A DNA stretch of 64,000 bases from Halorubrum trapanicum. Its GTDB lineage: Archaea > Halobacteriota > Halobacteria > Halobacteriales > Haloferacaceae. Made by a program: the position numbers and the translations under genes. Positions 41,009 to 55,053 of this stretch are shown piece by piece. Each line of letters starts with the position of its first letter. The first letter of the stretch is position 1. The notes beneath the pieces were generated by a model. The model was not told where the DNA came from. It did no database searches and saw only the letters and a list, made by a program, of their open reading frames with translations. The stretch is from NCBI RefSeq assembly GCF_017873555.1, contig NZ_JAGGKE010000002.1, positions 186,001-250,000 on the forward strand, written 5' to 3'.

Positions 41009-42523
41009 TCACATGAAGTCGTTCAGTCCGGCCTGATCGTCGCCCGCGCCGTCGGCGTCTCCGTCGCCCGCGCCGTCGGAGGATCCCTCGTCTACCGAGT
41101 CGTCGCGATCGGTTCCCGCGGCGTTCGTTTCGGCGCCGTCGAGGGGGGAATCGTCGCCGTCGGAAGCCGCGTCCTCCCCGTCGTCCGCGCGCCCCGCCGC
41201 GTCGAGCGCGAAGGCGCCGTCGGCGTGTTCCTCGATCAGTTCCTCGCGGCGGGCCTGCGCGTCCTCGACTATCGACGCAACCTTGTTCGTCGACTCGCCC
41301 GAGCCGGTGACGAAGGCGACCCCTTCCTCGTCGAGGTCGTAGGCCGCCGCCATCGCGACGGTCAGCTCGCGGGGCTTACAGTGGTGGGTGACGGACTCGA
41401 GGAACGGCAACACCTCGCGTCTGGCGGTCGCGACGCTACAGCCGCTCGCGGCCGCGATCTTGCCGACGATCTCGTCCGCGGTCGCGTCCGACGACGACCA
41501 GAACTGCGGGCGACCGTACCGCGTCCACCCGCCCTTCTCGCCGTCGCGGGCCGCGGCCACGCCCGCGGCCGCGTTGTCGGTCGCGTACCGCCAGTAGGAG
41601 TAGTTCTGCGTGGCGCGCACGCGGCCGAGCCACACGTCCGCGTTGGCGAGGAAGTCGTACGCGCGGACCGCCTCCGCCGGCTCGTACACGTCCAAGAGGT
41701 TGTTCTCGATCCACCGCATCAGGTCGTCGGGCGTCTCGTCGACGGCGTACGCCGACCGGAGCGCCTCCTCGGCGGACTCCTCTTTCAACACGGCGTCGAG
41801 GAACGGGAACAGCCCCAACGCCTTGTCGCGGTCGCCGGTGACCACGTCCTCGACCGTGATCGAGTCGCGCCCCTGCGTGGCGGCCTGGAGGTCGTTGACC
41901 GCGCCCCGCAGGTCGCCGCGGTTCCCCTCCGCGATCCGCTGGAGGGCGTCGGACTCGAACTCGATCCCCTCCTTGCGACAGACGTCCCGGAGGACGGGGA
42001 CGATGGAGCGCGCGGAGACGTCGCGGAACTCGATCTCCTGGGTCGCGTTCCGGAGTCCGCGCGACATGTCGTAGTAGTCGTTGGCGATGAGCACGATGGG
42101 CTGGCCCGACTCCTTGACCAGCTTCGTGATCGCCGACGCCCCGCCCCGGTCGTAGTTGCCGTGGATGTTGTCCGCCTCGTCGACGATGACGAGCTGGCGC
42201 GAGGCGGTGTCGCCGCCGCTCGCGCCGCCGCCCGCGGCGCTCCCGCCGAGGGTGGCGTTGCGCGCGGCCCGCCCCGCGAATCGCTCGATGACGTCGGCGG
42301 TACGCTGGTCGGAGGCGTTGAGTTCGACGGTCTCCCAGTCCATGTCGTTCGCGAGCGCGTGCGCCGCGCTCGTCTTCCCGACGCCCGGGCTGCCGTGGAG
42401 GACGACCGCCTCGCGGTGGTCGTCCCACGAGCGGGCCCACTCCGCGAACGCGTCGCGGGCCTTGTCGTTGCCGCGCACCTCCGAGAGCGTGCTCGGGCGG
42501 TACTTCTCCGTCCAGTCGGCCAT
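41009..42523 (-). CDS. rfcL: Replication factor C large subunit
   Basis: A 504-residue clamp-loader subunit. Walker A is residues 43-51 (HGSPGVGKT) and Walker B is LVIVDEADN (111-119), followed by the RFC collar domain. The C-terminus is a long acidic, low-complexity tail ending in a PCNA-interacting motif, QAGLNDFM, which is the archaeal PIP box. It loads PCNA onto primed DNA together with RfcS encoded elsewhere. The start is the ATG at 42523, and the gene runs opposite to the kinase. Confidence 0.95.
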   Translation of the reverse strand: MADWTEKYRPSTLSEVRGNDKARDAFAEWARSWDDHREAVVLHGSPGVGKTSAAHALANDMDWETVELNASDQRTADVIERFAGRAARNATLGGSAAGGGASGGDTASRQLVIVDEADNIHGNYDRGGASAITKLVKESGQPIVLIANDYYDMSRGLRNATQEIEFRDVSARSIVPVLRDVCRKEGIEFESDALQRIAEGNRGDLRGAVNDLQAATQGRDSITVEDVVTGDRDKALGLFPFLDAVLKEESAEEALRSAYAVDETPDDLMRWIENNLLDVYEPAEAVRAYDFLANADVWLGRVRATQNYSYWRYATDNAAAGVAAARDGEKGGWTRYGRPQFWSSSDATADEIVGKIAAASGCSVATARREVLPFLESVTHHCKPRELTVAMAAAYDLDEEGVAFVTGSGESTNKVASIVEDAQARREELIEEHADGAFALDAAGRADDGEDAASDGDDSPLDGAETNAAGTDRDDSVDEGSSDGAGDGDADGAGDDQAGLNDFM

Positions 42524-42565
42524 TACCGGAGCAAGGAGCGAGCCGCGTTTAGGGGTTGCGGAGCG

Positions 42566-42940
42566 TCAGTCCTCGCTCGGCTCCGCCAGGTCGTATCGCG
42601 GCGCGAAGCCGTCGTACGCACCATCGCTAGAGGCGATAGTATCGCCGTCGGATTCGACGAGGTGGAGCGCGTCGAACGGCGTGAACCCGTGTTCCTCGAC
42701 GTACGTCGCCGCCGCGACGACCGTGTCCGCGTCGCCGCGGACCTCCACGAGACTCGCGGCGTTCGTGACGACCCGCTCCGTGTCGCGGTCCTCGCGGTAG
42801 GCGACCAGGAGGAGTTCGATGAGGGTGAACTGCGACGTCCACAGCTCGCTCCGACGGTCGCGGTACGCCTCCTCGGCCGCCTCACCGAGCCAGTCCTCGT
42901 CTTTGATCAGCGCGAGGAGGAAATCGGTCTCCGCGTACAT
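42566..42940 (-). CDS. PIN-domain toxin (VapC-like)
   Basis: A 124-residue PIN ribonuclease from the ATG at 42940. The acidic active-site residues are D6 (AETDFLLAL), E42 (TLIELLLVAY), D90 (TPFDALHLV) and D106 region (IASSDGAYDG). It should cut RNA (often tRNA) when released from its antitoxin. The ATG directly abuts the antitoxin stop (TGAATG). It differs from the frameshifted toxins elsewhere in the window in being intact. Confidence 0.88.
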   Translation of the reverse strand: MYAETDFLLALIKDEDWLGEAAEEAYRDRRSELWTSQFTLIELLLVAYREDRDTERVVTNAASLVEVRGDADTVVAAATYVEEHGFTPFDALHLVESDGDTIASSDGAYDGFAPRYDLAEPSED

Positions 42941-43171
42941 TCAGCGCCCGGCCTCGTCGAACGCCGCCTCGCGCGCCTCCTCGCGAAGCTCGTCGGCCGT
43001 CTTCTCGACCCCCGCAAACTCGTCTCGGAGGGCGTCGAGCGGGTCTTCCGCGACCGGGATCAGCTTGATCCCGTCGTGGACCTCGACGATGCGATAGCGG
43101 TCGCCGTACCGCTCTCGCAGGTCCTTCGGAAGCGTCATCCGACCTCGGTCGTCGAGCGTCGCCTCGGACAT
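42941..43171 (-). CDS. AbrB/MazE-type antitoxin
   Basis: A 76-residue swapped-hairpin DNA-binding protein from the ATG at 43171 (MSEATLDDRGRMTLPKDLRE). The AbrB N-terminal motif (DDRGRMTLPKDLRERYG) is clear, and the C-terminal helix (DALRDEFAGVEKTADELREE) should bind the PIN toxin. It precedes the toxin directly and is expected to repress the shared promoter. Confidence 0.88.
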   Translation of the reverse strand: MSEATLDDRGRMTLPKDLRERYGDRYRIVEVHDGIKLIPVAEDPLDALRDEFAGVEKTADELREEAREAAFDEAGR

Positions 43172-43493
43172 ACGCGAACGTAGTGTGGGTAGAAATAAGA
43201 ATGTACCCATCGAGAGCATCTGTACCCACGCCCGAGGCGGACGCCCGCCGACCGGAGGCCGCCGGCGTCACGCATATTTCGACGGATCCCCCGAAACGGA
43301 GGGGTGCGCCCCCGAACGCGACGACCCCAGCGGTTCAATTTTCGGCGTTGATATTCGTGCCACTAAGTACATAAGTGCGCTTCTCCTTTTTACAGTCAAC
43401 CAGCAACCGATCGGAACGGAACTGAGGGCCGCTTCAACCATGGCACACGAGGCCCTCGGTGTCCGTTCTTCGGTGAACCGCTGGGTTCAAACA
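43172..43493. other. Intergenic region upstream of pilin gene
   Basis: A 322-bp region with no gene. It serves both the antitoxin (leftward) and the pilin (rightward). Part from 43370 is AT-richer (CTAAGTACATAAGTG, then CTTCTCCTTTTTACAG), which could hold the pilin promoter. A longer pilin frame upstream of 43494 is not conserved. Confidence 0.4.
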
Positions 43494-43919
43494 ATGAAAC
43501 CAACCAACCAATCCAATTCGGACGACCGTGCGGTGAGCCCCGTTATCGGGGTCATCCTGATGGTCGCGATTACAGTCATCCTGGCGGCCGTCATCGGGAC
43601 GTTCGTCCTCGGGCTGGGCGATCAGTTAGGCGACACGGCGCCGCAGGCGACCTTTACGATCGACGACAACAGTTCGCAAACGATCAACATCACCAAGACA
43701 GGCGGCCAGTCGCTCGAAGCGGGCGATCTCGTGCTTTCGGTCGACGGTGAGAGAGTCAATACCTCCTTCCCAGGAGACACCTGGGAAACAGGCGAGCGGA
43801 AGGAAATCGGTAACGGAGATAGTGGTCTCAGCGACTGGGACTCCGGTGAGGCTACAGTTCGAATAATCCACGACCCGAGCGGGAACGCGATCTTCGAGCG
43901 GACGTGGGACTTCAGCTAA
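43494..43919 (+). CDS. Type IV pilin-like protein
   Basis: A 141-residue archaeal pilin precursor from the ATG at 43494. It has a class III signal peptide: a charged leader NSDDRAVSPVIG, cut by the PibD peptidase before AVSPVIG, then a hydrophobic stretch ILMVAITVILAAVIGTFVLGL. The C-terminal part is an exported beta-rich domain (FTIDDNSSQTINITKTGGQS). Such pilins build adhesion pili in haloarchaea. No other pilus gene is close, so it is probably one of many minor pilins. Confidence 0.9.
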   Translation: MKPTNQSNSDDRAVSPVIGVILMVAITVILAAVIGTFVLGLGDQLGDTAPQATFTIDDNSSQTINITKTGGQSLEAGDLVLSVDGERVNTSFPGDTWETGERKEIGNGDSGLSDWDSGEATVRIIHDPSGNAIFERTWDFS

Positions 43920-44086
43920 TCGCGTAGCCCGGTTATCACCTCTGTCGGATCTCTATTTCTGTTGGACATCAGAATCGAAGAGCGTCGGCGTTGAACCGCT
44001 TGGTCGTGTTGGTCGACGCCGAGCTTGTTTAGTAATTCTCAATGGATAAAGAAGGCAAAGAATAATTCAATCAACTCCTTAACAGT

Positions 44087-45493
44087 ATGTTAAGAATGAA
44101 TCAGAACAAGCTACAGGATTGCTCGCCGACTATCACGAAGACATTAGAGAATTTGGAAGAGTTTTATTCAGAGGTTGGTGAGTACAAGATCCGTCACGCA
44201 CCAGCTATTTGGACTCTAGATCGTTTTGATAGTGAGAAGTCGACAATATTCTTGGAAAAATTTGGAGAGGATTTAAGTGTCGATCTTGCTGATTACTTAT
44301 TATTAGAGTACGGTAGGATATTCACGCCGTTATATAGGCTGTTCATTGAAAATCAGAAGCCAGAGAACTGTAGTGACCATATAAAACTAATCCTCCAAAC
44401 TCAGAAACAGAAGCAGGAGTTCTCTGGCGGTTTTGTCAACTATCACCCAAATCTATTCCGATCTCTCGTACACATCGCACCCGATTCAGAAGCGACTCAA
44501 AGAGCTCGGGATTACTTTATCAAAAATTTTCACCCAGAACAAAACCCGGTAAGAGGACTAATAAGCGGGGTCTCCGGGGTTCTTGGACTTATTGAATTAA
44601 ATTATAATAAATATGAAGAAATGACGGGGGAGTGGTTACAAGAAATCGCATCGGAAATTGTGGGGGAAGGTAGAAGCGAAACATTAGATGGCGGAACTAT
44701 TTCAGCGGGTCATTTATTAGAGGCTTCAACCAAACACCGCAGTTATTCTCTTCCACAAGAAGTAATCACTACGATTGAAGAGGATCTTGTTGACTACTGT
44801 GACAGTTTTAACCAACATATAGAAAATTCCGGTTTTGACGAGCTAGCCAGCAACGATTTCTATACCCAAGAGAAGCGCTCACATGGAGCAGTTATGTTGC
44901 CAGCTTTTGCTGTGAATTCGCTAACAGCAATCGGTCATGGATACAATGTCTCCGGGTATGAACGAGAATGGGAGAACCAACTTAAAGAAAAAGAGCAGGA
45001 GCGAACTAGGTCTGAGTTTGTCTCAACGTTGCCTGCAATGGAGATGTGGGAGCGTAAACGTGGAATACAACGGAAGGCAGAATCAATGATTTCTTCTACA
45101 GAGAATGAGCTTCGTATCGCTTCACTACGGATCGATATGCTTCATGAGGACTTGATCGATATCGCTGAATCAGATGAGGAGATTGAGATAAAAATACTCA
45201 CAAACACGGGTTCATCACGTGGCGAGCGACGGAAAATGGCGAACGCGGTGATAAACGAACTGGCTCGTCGAACTGAGGGCAACGTCCATGAACACCAGCT
45301 AGTTCATGCCCGGATTGTTATAGCAGACGATCGAGAATTGCTGGTTTCATCTGCTGATCTTACGAGGGATCAGCTTGCAGACGAATTTAACGGCGGTATT
45401 TACACCAGAGATCCTGATGCGGTCCAGCAAGCTATAGACGCATTCGATGAAATCTGGAATAGCGGGCATAAACTGGACCCAAGTGGTAATTGA
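44087..45493 (+). CDS. AT-rich protein with PLD-like C-terminus, unknown
   Basis: A 468-residue protein with low GC and many Lys/Asn codons, unlike its neighbours, which points to recent transfer. The start is the ATG at 44087 (MLRMNQNKLQDC) or the Met four residues later. The first ~320 residues are helical and not recognised. From about 330 the segment AESMISSTENELRIASLRIDM starts an alpha/beta domain; its core is ILTNTG and the motif HARIVIADDRELLVSSADL (H407 then D414, Ser/Ala/Asp 421-423), which follows HxKx4Dx6GSxN of phospholipase D family proteins, with Arg in place of Lys. It could be a PLD-type nuclease, a TrmB-like sugar domain, or a sensor. It sits alone in a gene-poor AT-rich segment. 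Confidence 0.7.
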   Translation: MLRMNQNKLQDCSPTITKTLENLEEFYSEVGEYKIRHAPAIWTLDRFDSEKSTIFLEKFGEDLSVDLADYLLLEYGRIFTPLYRLFIENQKPENCSDHIKLILQTQKQKQEFSGGFVNYHPNLFRSLVHIAPDSEATQRARDYFIKNFHPEQNPVRGLISGVSGVLGLIELNYNKYEEMTGEWLQEIASEIVGEGRSETLDGGTISAGHLLEASTKHRSYSLPQEVITTIEEDLVDYCDSFNQHIENSGFDELASNDFYTQEKRSHGAVMLPAFAVNSLTAIGHGYNVSGYEREWENQLKEKEQERTRSEFVSTLPAMEMWERKRGIQRKAESMISSTENELRIASLRIDMLHEDLIDIAESDEEIEIKILTNTGSSRGERRKMANAVINELARRTEGNVHEHQLVHARIVIADDRELLVSSADLTRDQLADEFNGGIYTRDPDAVQQAIDAFDEIWNSGHKLDPSGN

Positions 45494-45535
45494 TCACAAG
45501 CTGCTGAAGGATAGCTCAGGGGTGAGTTATTTGAC

Positions 45536-45812
45536 TCACTTACTGACCGCCTCCTCGACGATATCGATTTCCTCGTCGGTCAGTCCGTACAACTCATACA
45601 CGATCTCATCAATCAGCGCATCCGTCTGCTCGGCCTTCGCGTCGAGCTCCTCGGCGCGCTCCTTCGTCTCCAGGTAGTTCTCCAGATCATCGGCCACGTC
45701 GTCGACATCGGGCAGTTCGATCGCCTTCAGCCGGTCGATCAGCGAGTTCGTCTTCGTCGCCGTCTCGCGGAAGTTCGCGAAGCCGCCCGCCTCGTCGACG
45801 GCGACCGGGACC
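45536..45812 (-). pseudogene. C-terminal fragment of a DNA methylase (copy 1)
   Basis: This segment encodes AVDEAGGFANFRETATKTNS, LKAIELPDVDDVADDLENYL and the ending VYELYGLTDEEIDIVEEAVS, with a stop at 45536. I recall this as the end of haloarchaeal Eco57I/PglX-type N6-adenine methylases. The upstream 45813-45850 frame (RTGRRLRRFAGR) is unrelated, so the gene is truncated at the boundary. The same fragment occurs at 46546-46821 with roughly 90% base identity by eye. Confidence 0.65.
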
Positions 45813-45961
45813 CGTCCAGCAAACCGCCTCAATCGGCGTCCCGTGCGCACCGACCCGGCCGGTCCGGTTCCGACTGTGCTGACCTACGTTCCGACCGAGT
45901 CCGGCATTAGCAACGAAAGGAGAACTTCCTTGAAACAAGCCCTCTTCGGACGACGTAAGCG

Positions 45962-46348
45962 ATGGGTAACGGCGACGTCCAGTACTCCGAGTGGGTGGAG
46001 TACCCACATGCTCGCCTGCGGGTCGATATCGACAAGACGGCGGGGGTTCCAACTCGGTTCGTCGTCCAACTGGAACGACGCGTCGACGGATCGTGGCGGC
46101 AGGTCGTTCGGTTCGATCACGAATCCGAGAATCCGATGGGCCACGATATCACCGACGAGGGACTCCACATGGACGTGTATCGCGACGGCGAGAAGGTGCG
46201 GGTGAAAGATGACTTTCCACCCGTAGACTTAACCCACGCGCCGCGCTACTGTATCGCGTATATCGAGCGGCACGCCGGCGTGCTGCTCCGGAGGTTCGAG
46301 AGATGGCACGATCTGAGTCAGGAGCCGAGTGGCGGGACGAGCCCATGA
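45962..46348 (+). CDS. DUF7718-like protein, first of an overlapping pair
   Basis: About 128 residues from the ATG at 45962 (MGNGDVQYSEWVEYPHARLR). It is mostly beta, with a conserved core RFVVQLERRVDGSWRQVVRFDHE and end PPVDLTHAPRYCIAYIERH, an aromatic-rich tail. I recall a haloarchaeal family of this kind, possibly a toxin component, but cannot confirm function. The following gene overlaps it by ATGA, as in toxin-antitoxin pairs. It lies between two copies of a methylase C-terminus. Confidence 0.6.
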   Translation: MGNGDVQYSEWVEYPHARLRVDIDKTAGVPTRFVVQLERRVDGSWRQVVRFDHESENPMGHDITDEGLHMDVYRDGEKVRVKDDFPPVDLTHAPRYCIAYIERHAGVLLRRFERWHDLSQEPSGGTSP

Positions 46349-46512
46349 GTGACGCTGAACTCGATGCGTTCGAGGACGCCGTCGACGACCTTGGTGAACG
46401 CGTCAGCAAGGTCCTCGCGGCCGGAACCGACCAGACTCTCGACGAGATCGAAGCCGAAATCGACGACCTCCAGATGCCCGACCCGCTCGACGATCGCGCC
46501 GTCGACGAGTAG
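46345..46512 (+). CDS. Small acidic partner protein of the overlapping pair
   Basis: A 55-residue protein starting at the ATG at 46345 (MSDAELDAFEDAVDD), with a 4-base ATGA overlap with the stop of the upstream gene. An in-frame ATG at 46303 would add 14 residues. The sequence is an acidic single-helix type (EDAVDDLGERVSKVLAAG). Its position and size suit an antitoxin for the preceding protein, which is inference. Confidence 0.55.
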   Translation: MSDAELDAFEDAVDDLGERVSKVLAAGTDQTLDEIEAEIDDLQMPDPLDDRAVDE

Positions 46513-46545
46513 TCAGATCAGTCGTGACGGCGGCCTCCTCCGACG

Positions 46546-47087
46546 CTACTCCCCGACCGCCTCCTCGACGATCTCGATCTCCTCATCGGTCAGGCCGTAC
46601 AACTCGTAGACGATCTCATCAATCAGCGCGTCCGTCTCCTCGATCTTCGCGTCGAACTCCTCGGCGCGCTCTGTCGTCTTCAGGTAGTTCTCCAAGTCGT
46701 CGGCCACGTCGTCGACGTCGGGTAACTCGATCGCCTTCAGCCGGTCGATCAGCGATTTCGTCTTTGTCGCCGTCTCACGGAAGTTCGCGAAGTCGCCCGC
46801 CTCGTCGACGGCGACCGGCACGAAGTGCTCGATCAGGTCCGCCTCCCGTTCCGTGAGGTCCGTGATCCGGAACGTGGGCAGGTACTCGGACTCCGTGTAG
46901 CCCCACTGGTCCGTCTCGTGTGCGCCTCCATGGGCTTCGTCCGTTCCGGCAGCCCGAGAGCCTCGCTCCGGTCTGCTCTCGCAGTCCTCGTCGTCGGGCT
47001 TGTAGCGAGCGGTGGCCTCTATGAGGACCGTGTTGGCGGACTCGCGATCGACGCGAGCGGTGTTGCGTCGAAACGCCGGGACAGCGA
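46546..47087 (-). pseudogene. C-terminal part of a DNA methylase (copy 2, longer)
   Basis: An open frame without start codon runs from 47169 down to a stop at 46546. From the right it reads NTVLIEATARYKPDDED, a linker, DQWGYTESEYLPTFRITDLT, EREADLIEHFVPVAVDEAGD, then FANFRETATKTKS to the end at VYELYGLTDEEIEIVEEAV. This matches my memory of the last ~180 residues of haloarchaeal type IIG/PglX-like adenine methylases. The AdoMet and NPPY motifs are absent here, so it is a truncated relic. The last 276 bp match copy 1 at 45536-45812. Confidence 0.65.
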
Positions 47088-47153
47088 TTAGAACTGATAT
47101 CGCAGCGCCGACTCGGTCGCCAGCCAGTGCGCGCCGATCAGGTCGGTCTCGAC
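47088..47153 (-). pseudogene. C-terminal relic preceding the methylase relic
   Basis: In another frame, 22 codons between a TAG and a TAA read ETDLIGAHWLATESALRYQF and stop. The composition (WLATESALRYQF) is that of a real protein end, not chance. It sits directly before the methylase fragment in the same direction, as if two genes of one system were both cut here. Parent family unknown. Confidence 0.3.
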
Positions 47154-47175
47154 CTACTCGCGCGTTTTACTCCAT

Positions 47176-47511
47176 TCAGCCCCACTCGTTGAGGTTCACG
47201 ATCGGGGGCAGGTCGTCGGCTCCGGCACCCACTCGATCACCGCCGCGACGCGGTCGGCGATCGCGTAGGTGTCCATCGTGTCGTCGGCGTAGTAGAGTAC
47301 CGGCACGTCGCCTCGCGTCTCCGCGTCGAGAAAATCGGTGTCGTGCGTGAGGACGACGATAGCCGCCCTCGCGAGCGAACGCCGCGATCGACTCGTCGTC
47401 GACGCCTTCGGAAAGCGCCTCGTGGACGTGGTCCGCGGCGACGCCCTTTCCCCGGAGCGCCTCCGCGACCCGCGGACTCGTGTTCTCGTCGACGAGGACC
47501 CGATACGCCAT
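47176..47511 (-). pseudogene. DUF5615 PIN-like toxin with two frameshifts
   Basis: A VapC45-like (Mut7-C/DUF5615) toxin gene starting at the ATG at 47511 (MAYRVLVDENTSPRVAEAL). After EGG at about 47360 the frame must shift to read AIVVLTHDTDFLDAETRGD and MDTYAIADRVAAVIEWVPE, then shift back near 47225 to end PPIVNLNEWG. The two shifts sum to three bases, restoring the frame. In the original frame the middle reads as Arg/His-rich nonsense, removing the central catalytic acids. Either this is inactive or sequencing errors are present. The DUF433 antitoxin ahead is intact. Confidence 0.7.
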
Positions 47512-47515
47512 CCGG

Positions 47516-47812
47516 TTACGCGCTCTCGTCGCCGTTCAGCTCCGACAGCGACACCGCGCCGGCCTCCCGCGCCGCGGTCTCGCGTTCCGACCGTTGACGT
47601 TCGACCGCCGCCATCTCGTCGGGGTGACTGTGGTAGTACTGGAGCGCGCCGTACACGTCCGCGACGTCGAGGTCGAGCTGGTCGGCCACCGCCTCGGCCG
47701 ACTTCCCGGCCTCCTCGACGAGCCCCTGAATCCGCCGGACGGTCACGCGCCGTCCCTCGATATGCGGCTCGTCGTGAACCTCGGCCACGATCCGAACCGA
47801 CGACTGTGCCAT
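47516..47812 (-). CDS. DUF433 antitoxin (VapB45-like)
   Basis: A 98-residue protein from the ATG at 47812 (MAQSSVRIVAEVHDEPHIEG). The DUF433 core is HIEGRRVTVRRIQGLVEEAG then ADQLDLDVADVYGALQYYHSHPDEM. DUF433 proteins bind DNA and neutralise DUF5615 PIN-like toxins (VapBC45-type). Its stop is 4 bp before the toxin ATG, so the two were made as one unit. Confidence 0.8.
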   Translation of the reverse strand: MAQSSVRIVAEVHDEPHIEGRRVTVRRIQGLVEEAGKSAEAVADQLDLDVADVYGALQYYHSHPDEMAAVERQRSERETAAREAGAVSLSELNGDESA

Positions 47813-48210
47813 ACCGGTGTGTATTAGCCGAGAAGACATAAAACATCGCTCCAGCGGTCATCGATCGCTTCTCTCGAACTCGACCGGGTCTGACCGCTGG
47901 CGTGCTTCGCTCGATGCGAGCGACTACGGCGCCGCGGCGGCCCACACACCCGGGAGAGACCATGCGCCTGTCCGATACACGTCCGAATCGGTCCGTTCTA
48001 CGCGTCCGCGAGCGGCTCCGGCCCAGTCGAATTCCGCCCACATGACCGGAGACTCCCCGAAACTATCAGAAAATCTAACATCGAAGTACCGGCACTACGC
48101 GGTCTCGTCGGAACCGCCGATCTGGCGGTTCATAGCGCACCCCCGAATGCGGTTTTCGAACGTTAGAGGGCGTTGAGGCTGCCGATAATGGAAATCTATA
48201 AAGAATCTGA
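47813..48210. other. Gene-poor edge of the defence-like island
   Basis: About 400 bp with no supported gene between the DUF433 promoter and tRNA-Pro. ORFs across it are Arg/Ser-rich without conservation. The last part (48060-48200) is AT-richer with GAAAATCTAACATCG. No tRNA 3' duplication is seen in it. Confidence 0.45.
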
Positions 48211-48281
48211 TGGGACCGCTGAGAGTCGAACTCAGGTCATACGGACCCCATCCGCATAGGATACCACTACCCCACGGTCCC
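48211..48281 (-). tRNA. tRNA-Pro (GGG)
   Basis: A complete 71-base cloverleaf on the minus strand. The acceptor stem is GGGACCG/CGGTCCC, the D-arm GTGGGGTAGTGGTATCC, the anticodon loop ATGGGGT with GGG, and the T-arm CTGAGTTCGACTCTCAG. It marks the right end of the unusual 43.9-48.2 kb region. Confidence 0.95.
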
Positions 48282-52880: not shown

Positions 52881-53318
52881 CTACTTTTTCTCAGACACGA
52901 CAGGTGATTGCCTCGGGAGAAATCGCCGTAACGCATACGCAACAGTAGCTGAGATAATCCCTATTGGGAGGCCATAGAAGATTGCTGTCCCCACGCCGGT
53001 TAAAAGCCCATAGTCAGGTTGGGGGTGATTAAGCGAGATAACACCGTACAGTGTAAAGCTGCTCATGATGATGACGGTGACAGCAATACTCACGAGTATT
53101 CCGTCGTTTCGATATGTATGTATCCCTGCCAGAATAATCGCTGATACTGTGATTCCAAGTGGACCCATAAGCAAACCAAATGAGTTTCCCATACCGGAAT
53201 TTCCAACAAGATAGAGTTGACCGAAGAACAAGGCCATGAGAACGACCGAGTACCCGAGATACCGAAGCGATAGGTTCAGCGACTTCCCTAAGAGAAGCGA
53301 TTCTAACCGAGAGTCCAT
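52881..53318 (-). CDS. AT-rich four-helix membrane protein
   Basis: A 145-residue protein with low-GC codons. Four membrane helices are visible: YLGYSVVLMALFFGQLYLVG, GLLMGPLGITVSAIILAGI, ILVSIAVTVIIMSSFTLYGV and TAIFYGLPIGIISATVAYAL. A basic tail ends in SPVVSEKK. No family recognised. It is in a short AT-rich patch (52.87-53.95 kb) that also has a second small membrane gene, so it may be from mobile DNA. Confidence 0.6.
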   Translation of the reverse strand: MDSRLESLLLGKSLNLSLRYLGYSVVLMALFFGQLYLVGNSGMGNSFGLLMGPLGITVSAIILAGIHTYRNDGILVSIAVTVIIMSSFTLYGVISLNHPQPDYGLLTGVGTAIFYGLPIGIISATVAYALRRFLPRQSPVVSEKK

Positions 53319-53394
53319 ACACCACGATGGTTCACTGGTTGTATAAGCTTTTAATCAAGAAGGTCGCAGAAAATTAGACAGATAGATAGTAGGG

Positions 53395-53430
53395 GGCTCT
53401 GTTGAAATCCTCAGCGGTTGATGTTTTCAC
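53395..53430. other. Possible solitary IS end
   Basis: The sequence GGGGCTCTGTTGAAATCC at 53393-53410 followed by TCAGCGGTTGATG is similar to terminal repeats I recall for haloarchaeal IS5-type elements. No transposase or opposing end is found nearby, so it could be a deletion scar. Tentative. Confidence 0.25.
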
Positions 53431-53507
53431 ACTCTCAATCGCTCAGTACAGTAATAATACACACTTGAAATGGAAACTCAGCGGGTTGTTAGAAGGACCC
53501 AAGACAT

Positions 53508-53864
53508 ATGTCGAGTCCAACGATTCTATACATAATGACTAATTTCACAGGATATCTGCTGAGCATAAGAGATACGATCGTTAAAAAACGAGGTGGGGAG
53601 GTCAGCTATGGCATTTTATCTGCCATTGGTATAATCTTGTTTGCGTTAACATTCAGATCAGTTGATTTCAACGCGTCCTCAATAGTTACATTATTTCCGT
53701 TTCTGATCAGTTTAGCTTTTCTTTCCTACGGAGTATCTGGTTTTGTACCGGACAAGAACAAAAATACAATATTATTGCTGCGATCAGGTGTTGTGCTTAT
53801 AGCAATTGCCGCGATTGGCTTCGTTGTATTATTTATTCTATTTGCGCTTGGAAATACTCCTTGA
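53508..53864 (+). CDS. AT-rich three-helix membrane protein
   Basis: A 118-residue protein starting at the ATG at 53508, or at the internal Met at 53535 (MTNFTGYLLSIRD). Three to four hydrophobic segments: LSAIGIILFALTF, SIVTLFPFLISLAFLSYGV and VVLIAIAAIGFVVLFILFAL. Low GC and rare codons compared with flanks. Function unknown. It is divergent from the membrane gene at 53318. Confidence 0.55.
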   Translation: MSSPTILYIMTNFTGYLLSIRDTIVKKRGGEVSYGILSAIGIILFALTFRSVDFNASSIVTLFPFLISLAFLSYGVSGFVPDKNKNTILLLRSGVVLIAIAAIGFVVLFILFALGNTP

Positions 53865-53972
53865 GTTGTGGGCTAGGTTTTACGGTTGATTCAGCCGCAC
53901 AATCCCCCATAGATCGTTCAGTACAGATGAAATGCCTAGTGGTCAACACATTTGTGTGAGTGTCTTCCGGCG

Positions 53973-54617
53973 CTAGTCGTTCGTTCCCTGCATTACGAGT
54001 CTTGCCGTCGCACGGTCCCGTTCTGAGCCCCTGAGGAATCCCTTCGTGAAGCCCGCCCCGAACATCGCATCAACGAGAGTATCGTCTGTCTCCGGTGGCT
54101 CTTCACGGTCTACGACAGTGGCGAAGCGAAAGATGTGGGAGTTCCCCGTCGCGGTATCAAACATTAGATCCCACCGGTACCGCCTCGTTGACTGGTCAGT
54201 ATCCAAGTAAAGGTTTGAATCGGCGTTGCCATCGTCAGCGGGAACAACGTCTCCGGAGTGAGAGACGAGCGAGCCTGAGTGCCAGCCGTGTTCGACCGTT
54301 AGCGAGGCAGTCTTCCACTCGGTTCCCGTCTCGTTCGCTCCCGGGATAAGCCGATACTTGGTGACGAGAGCGTAGCGGTTGGTCAATTCGAGGTCAAGAA
54401 CCGATGCGGACTGTTGAACGGTACCATACGTCTCGCGTCCCGCTGTCGTCGTGTCGGTGGCCACGATGGGGCTGTTCCGTTGACCTGTTGAAGGAACTGG
54501 CTCCTCGGCGTGCGTGGCTGGTGGAGCGGGGGGTTTGTTGGCGATCGCGGCTGTAGCCCCGAGGACGCCGACGCCCCCGGCGCTGGCGGCCAGTCCAAGG
54601 AACGTGCGACGCTTCAT
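53973..54617 (-). CDS. Tat-signal exported protein, unknown
   Basis: About 214 residues from the ATG at 54617. The N-terminus is a Tat signal (MKRRTFLGLAASAGGVGVLG) with no lipobox cysteine, so the protein is exported, and perhaps released. The mature part has GTVQQSASVLDLELTNRYAL and YRWDLMFDTATGNSHIFRFAT. I do not recognise a family. GC is somewhat lower than average and it borders the AT-rich patch. Confidence 0.65.
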   Translation of the reverse strand: MKRRTFLGLAASAGGVGVLGATAAIANKPPAPPATHAEEPVPSTGQRNSPIVATDTTTAGRETYGTVQQSASVLDLELTNRYALVTKYRLIPGANETGTEWKTASLTVEHGWHSGSLVSHSGDVVPADDGNADSNLYLDTDQSTRRYRWDLMFDTATGNSHIFRFATVVDREEPPETDDTLVDAMFGAGFTKGFLRGSERDRATARLVMQGTND

Positions 54618-54967: not shown

Positions 54968-55053
54968 GTTGCGGTAGCCAAGCTTGGCCCAAGGCGCAGG
55001 GTTGCTAACTCTGTGGCGTCACTGCCTCCGGGGTTCGAATCCCCGCCGCAACG
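54968..55053 (+). tRNA. tRNA-Ser (GCT)
   Basis: An 86-base tRNA with long variable arm. The acceptor is GTTGCGG/CCGCAAC, the anticodon stem-loop CAGGG-TTGCTAA-CTCTG gives anticodon GCT, and the T-arm is GGGGTTCGAATCCCC. The variable arm (TGGCGTCACTGCC) identifies a class II tRNA. It begins the ribosomal operon. Confidence 0.95.

Follow-up and report, generated by a model that had tools for sequence, protein, structure and literature searches.

P0001, an AT-rich gene in the 64-kb stretch of Halorubrum DNA analysed here (the window), specifies a two-domain protein. An N-terminal domain, concluded to be an alpha/alpha toroid, is fused to a C-terminal PLD-like domain in which the canonical active-site Lys, Asn and Glu are replaced by invariant Arg, Asp and Asn. 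The gene is mobile, sits in its slot as single-gene cargo and is spread sporadically among the haloarchaea. Tentatively, and with a confidence just short of even, we regard P0001 as a stand-alone, horizontally moving defence effector, for which protection of the host is predicted. The first-pass annotation had suggested a standalone defence effector or a PLD-fused sensor; the PLD domain, the mobile context and the lack of a haloarchaeal partner agree with this. The active site is not a standard HKD. The features discussed below are collected in Table 1.

Table 1. Features of the P0001 locus (window coordinates).
Feature	Coordinates	Strand	Basis
Toroid-PLD gene P0001	44087..45493	+	ORF, homologues, purifying selection
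N-terminal alpha/alpha-toroid domain, residues 4-310	44096..45016	+	N-terminal HMMs, f22 Pfam matches, helical model
PLD-like domain, residues 334-457	45086..45457	+	PF13091 E=1.4e-9; Foldseek TrmBL2, NucT
HxRx4D motif (H407, R409, D414), K to R	45305..45328	+	R in 13/13 members, K in 28/28 comparator PLDs
S421-S-A-D424, canonical GSxN to SSAD	45347..45358	+	Pattern run and family alignment
N435, position of catalytic-site Glu in canonical PLDs	45389..45391	+	N in 13/13 members, E in 28/28 comparator PLDs
Cargo slot, holds only P0001	44029..45535	.	blastn against L115, L117; GC 0.43 over 1507 bp
Replication factor C large subunit (rfcL), interval border	41009..42523	-	In 52/52 Halorubrum genomes; identity read from sequence
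tRNA-Pro(GGG), other interval border; interval at its 3' side	48211..48281	-	
3' tail relic of type IIG restriction-methylase gene, convergent with P0001, stop codons 42 bp apart	45536..45832	-	
Second type IIG tail relic, 89% identical to first	46546..46821	-	

The gene and its N-terminal domain

In the reading of the window's ORFs, P0001 is an intact frame of 468 amino acids without an internal stop. Intact and AT-rich, as originally described, it has a GC content of 0.434 (GC3 0.41), while the window as a whole has 0.668 and its genes a median of 0.684; among the 67 predicted genes of at least 100 amino acids it is one of the two with the lowest GC. A second AT-rich patch of the window (53000-54000, GC 0.43) contains two small membrane-protein-like ORFs near the tRNA-Ser at 54968. 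In the alignment every homologue with an intact start begins at M4 of P0001, and the true start is therefore probably 44096, which would give a protein of 465 amino acids. P0001 was counted as coding on the evidence of the orthologue in Halorubrum amylolyticum and of eight haloarchaeal homologues in all. Against that orthologue, which is full-length and 69% identical, dN is 0.21 with dS saturated (NG86), from which the reading frame is judged to be under selection.

An HMM built solely from the nine haloarchaeal N-termini matches those of f22, a second archaeal family of the same phylum in which the gene occurs whole or partial in six further genomes, with E-values down to 6e-40; in the reverse direction the f22 HMM matches the N-terminus of P0001 (E=9e-11). 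Two f22 members, L067 (35.9 bits) and L066 (26.4 bits), pass the cut-off of 26.1 bits for SQHop_cyclase_C (PF13243), and L067 also matches the NCBIfam squalene cyclase (1e-9) over the same repeats. The N-terminus of P0001 is not named by Pfam and does not reach the PF13243 cut-off. Its predicted structure is all-helical over residues 6-336, and Foldseek gave a weak match of the model to intrinsic factor (2pmv; E 0.95, probability 0.69), an alpha/alpha toroid. Through homology to f22 relatives that lie above the Pfam cut-off, this region is concluded to be an alpha/alpha toroid of the squalene-cyclase/prenyltransferase type. What had been taken for an unrecognised helical N-terminus of ~320 residues is thus helical in the model, and it is no longer unrecognised.

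The catalytic DxDD is absent from P0001 and from the N-termini of 10 of the 12 other members; two members have single, unaligned occurrences at different places. Cyclase activity of the toroid is unlikely for this reason, and an identity as squalene-hopene cyclase was rejected in the absence of a family-wide DxDD. A toroid of this type, being related to isoprenoid-handling enzymes, might instead present an isoprenoid chain to the PLD domain for cleavage of the head group, which would make P0001 a phosphodiesterase for isoprenoid lipids or lipid-linked phosphates, for example those of the archaeal or a viral membrane. Many PLDs act on lipids, and archaeal lipids are isoprenoid in nature (PMC9385802). 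We nevertheless hold this reading to be very improbable: besides the missing family-wide DxDD, most haloarchaeal members have no QW motifs, the nearest PLD profiles are those of nucleases, and the distribution is sporadic and mobile. Alpha/alpha toroids, moreover, also occur as pure binding domains, as in intrinsic factor and the complement TED.

The PLD domain and its exchanged active-site residues

Pfam PLDc_2 (PF13091) matches the C-terminus of P0001 at 38.4 bits, where 27 are required, and it matches all nine haloarchaeal members; by profile P0001 thus belongs to the PLD superfamily. The motif HARIVIADDRELLV followed by SSAD is in place (H407 at position 45305, D424 at 45356), so the PLD-like motif recognised at the outset has held. 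The nearest PLD profiles, DrmC and NucT, are both nuclease-type. In a Foldseek search with the P0001 model, TrmBL2 chains ranked best and NucT was also found, with a probability of 1.00 but E-values of 0.01-0.05 and a pLDDT of 35-60 over the PLD part. AlphaFold run on four sequences gave a mean pLDDT of 60, and a model of the PLD domain by itself was worse. Comparison of the P0001 sequence with the PDB yielded chance matches only, and profile searches nothing at E<0.1.

All fetched ORFs were scanned with a pattern that admitted K or R at the first position, N or D at the second and several residues at the third. All 13 toroid-PLD members, down to ~25% identity, have Arg, Asp and Asn (HxRx4D, SS(A/S)D, Asn) at the three positions, whereas all 28 PLD proteins outside the family, which came from searches seeded with it and are not a random PLD sample, show HxKx4D, with N in the GSxN/TTAN element and Glu as the last of the three residues. 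P0001 was accordingly not assigned to the catalytic HKD class. The exchange conserves net charge, K being replaced by R and the acidic residue being shifted from the Glu position to the Asn position; fixed across a PLD family, it amounts to a natural experiment on the replaceability of the HKD lysine. Since K, N and E are exchanged in every member, nuclease activity is not to be assumed; the strict conservation of R/D/N at the active site argues for a function.

A further group of proteins, from the family f21 (L073-L083), has another architecture, a membrane-anchored PLD with K/N/E, and adjoins a methionine-synthase-like gene in many f21 genomes. These proteins were set aside as family members, having only the PLD domain in common and retaining K/N/E.

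In human PLDs the K-to-R change is the classical inactivating one, PLD1 K898R and PLD2 K758R being the standard inactive forms, and by analogy the PLD domain of P0001 could be dead, which would speak against an active effector. Both human mutants were used in PMC3648575. For the BrxL-fused HKD nuclease of type 1 BREX, a K-to-R exchange (HRD) has been described with activity thought to be preserved (PMC12839542).

A catalytically dead PLD fold might bind a small ligand or nucleic acid, as in TrmB, and with the toroid would form a regulator or adaptor. TrmB and TrmBL2 (PF11495; 5bpi) do share a PLD-like fold in archaea with P0001, Regulator_TrmB is a sub-threshold second match in 4/9 members, and TrmBL2 chains head the structural matches. 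Their N-terminus, however, is a winged helix in place of the toroid, and with PF11495 at 18.8 bits against 22.2, identity as a TrmB regulator was rejected. A dead fold in general is considered unlikely, because H407 and the exchanged residues are invariant, unlike those of a decaying pseudo-enzyme, and the gene has no co-travelling target operon.

Hotspot, mobility and distribution

P0001 lies in the interval between rfcL and tRNA-Pro (42524-48210), which measures 5.7 kb here. Across 52 genomes of the genus, from which 20 stretches of occupied intervals were fetched, the rfcL–tRNA-Pro distance runs from 0.27 kb (G108, G118) to ~47 kb (G119). Intact type IIG restriction-methylases occupy the intervals of G122 and G142, another type IIG gene is present in G123, and a truncated one in G137. 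In G119 (L127:11556-19997) a PLD/SNF2 helicase (C3a139-like) is grouped with a type IIG enzyme and a DNA-adenine methylase in what looks like one defence operon. Integrase-like genes also occur among the fetched occupied intervals. Several others hold apparently ordinary metabolic genes, and for that reason this hypervariable interval is regarded as a hotspot for integration in general, in which defence genes are frequent. It provides a defined place in which further archaeal defence genes may be sought.

Both relics downstream of P0001 match the 3' tails of intact type IIG restriction-methylase genes (~1430 amino acids) in relatives, which agrees with the methylase relics reported among its neighbours. 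The toxin-antitoxin pair reported with them is indeed present (42566-43219), as conserved backbone and not as part of the insertion. The small gene between the two relics (45962-46348) has a strong match to DUF7718 (E=3e-27). In Halorubrum each of the three PLD gene copies has a type IIG tail at a distance of 42-85 bp, and similar tails are found in at least nine other Halorubrum hotspots; they may act as homology patches for swaps of defence cargo. Tail and gene are common to the window and H. amylolyticum, convergent in both. The idea that movement of the gene depends on the tail was rejected, since the copy in Halorubrum sp. Boch-26 is codirectional with its tail and no tail was found at the copies outside Halorubrum.

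The borders of the insertion are precise. The window is homologous to G147 and G126 across a pilin gene as far as 44028; with G126 the homology starts again at 45536, where the type IIG tail lies. In G210 an insertion of ~1.48 kb begins with the family gene at the base after a tRNA-Thr; in G306 the same tRNA-Thr is followed by ~300 unrelated bases and the insertion is absent. A 2.9-kb insertion in Haloferax larsenii (L019:8931-11837) consists of the PLD gene and a 238-aa gene, the latter without an NCBIfam match, and is replaced by 12 bp in the 96%-identical G025. The copies in G044 and G324 lie on the 3' side of tRNAs, at 0.5 kb and ~4 kb, respectively. The toroid-PLD gene can thus form a whole cargo by itself. 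Housekeeping homologues in conserved, non-mobile contexts, which had been named as grounds for abandoning the proposal, were not what was found; the context is mobile and not that of housekeeping genes.

Whole-genome searches brought the full-length haloarchaeal members to nine, P0001 included: those of the window genome, H. amylolyticum, Halorubrum sp. Boch-26, Haloferax larsenii, G044, G184, G210, G324 and a plasmid of Haladaptatus caseinilyticus, the only plasmid-borne copy. Their identity to P0001 is at most 69% and mostly ~30%. The family is rare, being present in 8/392 genomes sampled from the order. All nine copies have a GC content of 0.38-0.45, regardless of the surrounding DNA at 0.51-0.67. 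The topology of the gene tree disagrees with taxonomy: the Boch-26 copy is placed with that of G324, from another family, and the Haladaptatus copy with that of G210, while the two remaining Halorubrum copies are sisters. This conflict is taken to mean that the gene has been transferred horizontally. A scan of genome contigs with P0001 as a single sequence gave no match, and alignment-based scans of these contigs gave only three relatives.

The gene might alternatively serve the mobile elements themselves, in plasmid or virus maintenance, superinfection exclusion or anti-defence, and merely be carried with islands. The plasmid copy, a tyrosine-recombinase-like gene at the H. amylolyticum locus (L017) and the copies at tRNA 3' ends would fit such a role. 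No relative was found, however, among 50,697 phage records or in IMG/VR (one single-sequence and three alignment-based scans), and some insertions hold the toroid-PLD gene alone; a service to mobile elements is therefore held to be decidedly unlikely.

Recurrence beside defence genes had been expected and was seen in part. Defence-type surroundings are present at four of the nine haloarchaeal loci, namely the window hotspot, Boch-26 (L020; Hma-like methylase and ATPase), H. amylolyticum (L017; C-terminal part of a type IIG enzyme) and G324 (L057; Schlafen-AlbA and an Mrr-type nuclease). The other five, among core genes or on the plasmid, have no recognised defence gene nearby, and the raw count of 4/9 is suggestive only of an association with defence islands. 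By eye, no conserved antitoxin or partner gene was found at the nine loci. A short HTH gene precedes the copies in L056 and L058 and no others, and the only recurrent neighbour is the type IIG tail, confined to Halorubrum. In f22 a gap of 2-18 bp separates the toroid-PLD gene from an HhH-GPD/EndoIII-like gene (L066, L068), which in L070 follows a broken toroid-PLD copy; this neighbour points to DNA as a possible substrate. L066 and L068 also have a divergent gene with a GVGLITFQYLRMQAGIDTSVPD stretch, HhH-GPD-like by eye and without a Pfam or NCBIfam match.

Proposed function and comparison with known systems

As a defence effector, P0001 would employ its toroid as a sensor or gate. Binding of an infection-linked ligand or partner by the toroid would release or assemble the C-terminal PLD domain, and a pair of protein molecules would then share a single active site with two H407 nucleophiles, in the manner of single-domain PLD nucleases. 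The parts that K, N and E play in phosphate binding and acid-base chemistry in canonical PLDs would fall to R409, D424 and N435, and the activated enzyme would cleave invading or host nucleic acid. The domain make-up, the invariant exchange, the mobility as single-gene cargo, the sporadic spread and the partial association with defence islands are observed; the sensing, the dimerisation, the catalysis, the nucleic-acid substrate and the resulting protection we infer. The more specific reading of P0001 as a single-gene archaeal immune system, in which a squalene-cyclase-type toroid senses infection and a PLD nuclease with an R/D/N active site responds, is possible though doubtful. If true, P0001 would represent an undescribed class of PLD enzyme. 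Single-gene defence systems are easily moved and tested, and few are known from haloarchaea. To our knowledge, no stand-alone toroid-gated defence protein has been described earlier, and P0001 would be the first. Our search of the literature found no toroid-PLD defence protein, and no separate family for the combination of toroid and R/D/N PLD domain was found in Pfam, NCBIfam or PADLOC.

DrmC of DISARM provides the best PLD-profile neighbour of the P0001 C-terminus (48.9 bits; PADLOC E=1e-9) and likewise has a single PLD motif. P0001 differs in carrying the toroid and in having HxR/SSAD/N where DrmC has HxK/GSxN/E, and identity with DrmC was rejected, the cut-off of NF038319 being 133 bits. 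Inspection by eye of the predicted genes of the 41-64 kb region, and of the 16 largest elsewhere in the window, showed no DrmA helicase, DrmB or methylase as operon partner, and no DISARM partners were seen next to the homologues. The initial remark that no partner of known PLD-bearing defence systems is present proved correct for DISARM.

Nuc/NucT-type PLD nucleases (6ehi) resemble P0001 in their single-motif PLD domain (Foldseek probability 1.00, target TM 0.58-0.60); P0001 differs from them in its two-domain make-up with a toroid and in the three exchanged active-site residues. Its N-terminal fold is that of the toroids of squalene-hopene cyclase C-termini and prenyltransferases (PF13243, PF00432), with QNEDGSW-type repeats in f22 members, but the family has approximately one toroid, fused to a PLD domain, without a family-wide DxDD and with eroded QW motifs in haloarchaea. 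The BrxL-fused HRD endoDNase of type 1 BREX (PMC12839542) offers a parallel for the K-to-R exchange of an HKD site inside a defence protein. The fusion there is to an AAA+ protein, in P0001 to a toroid.
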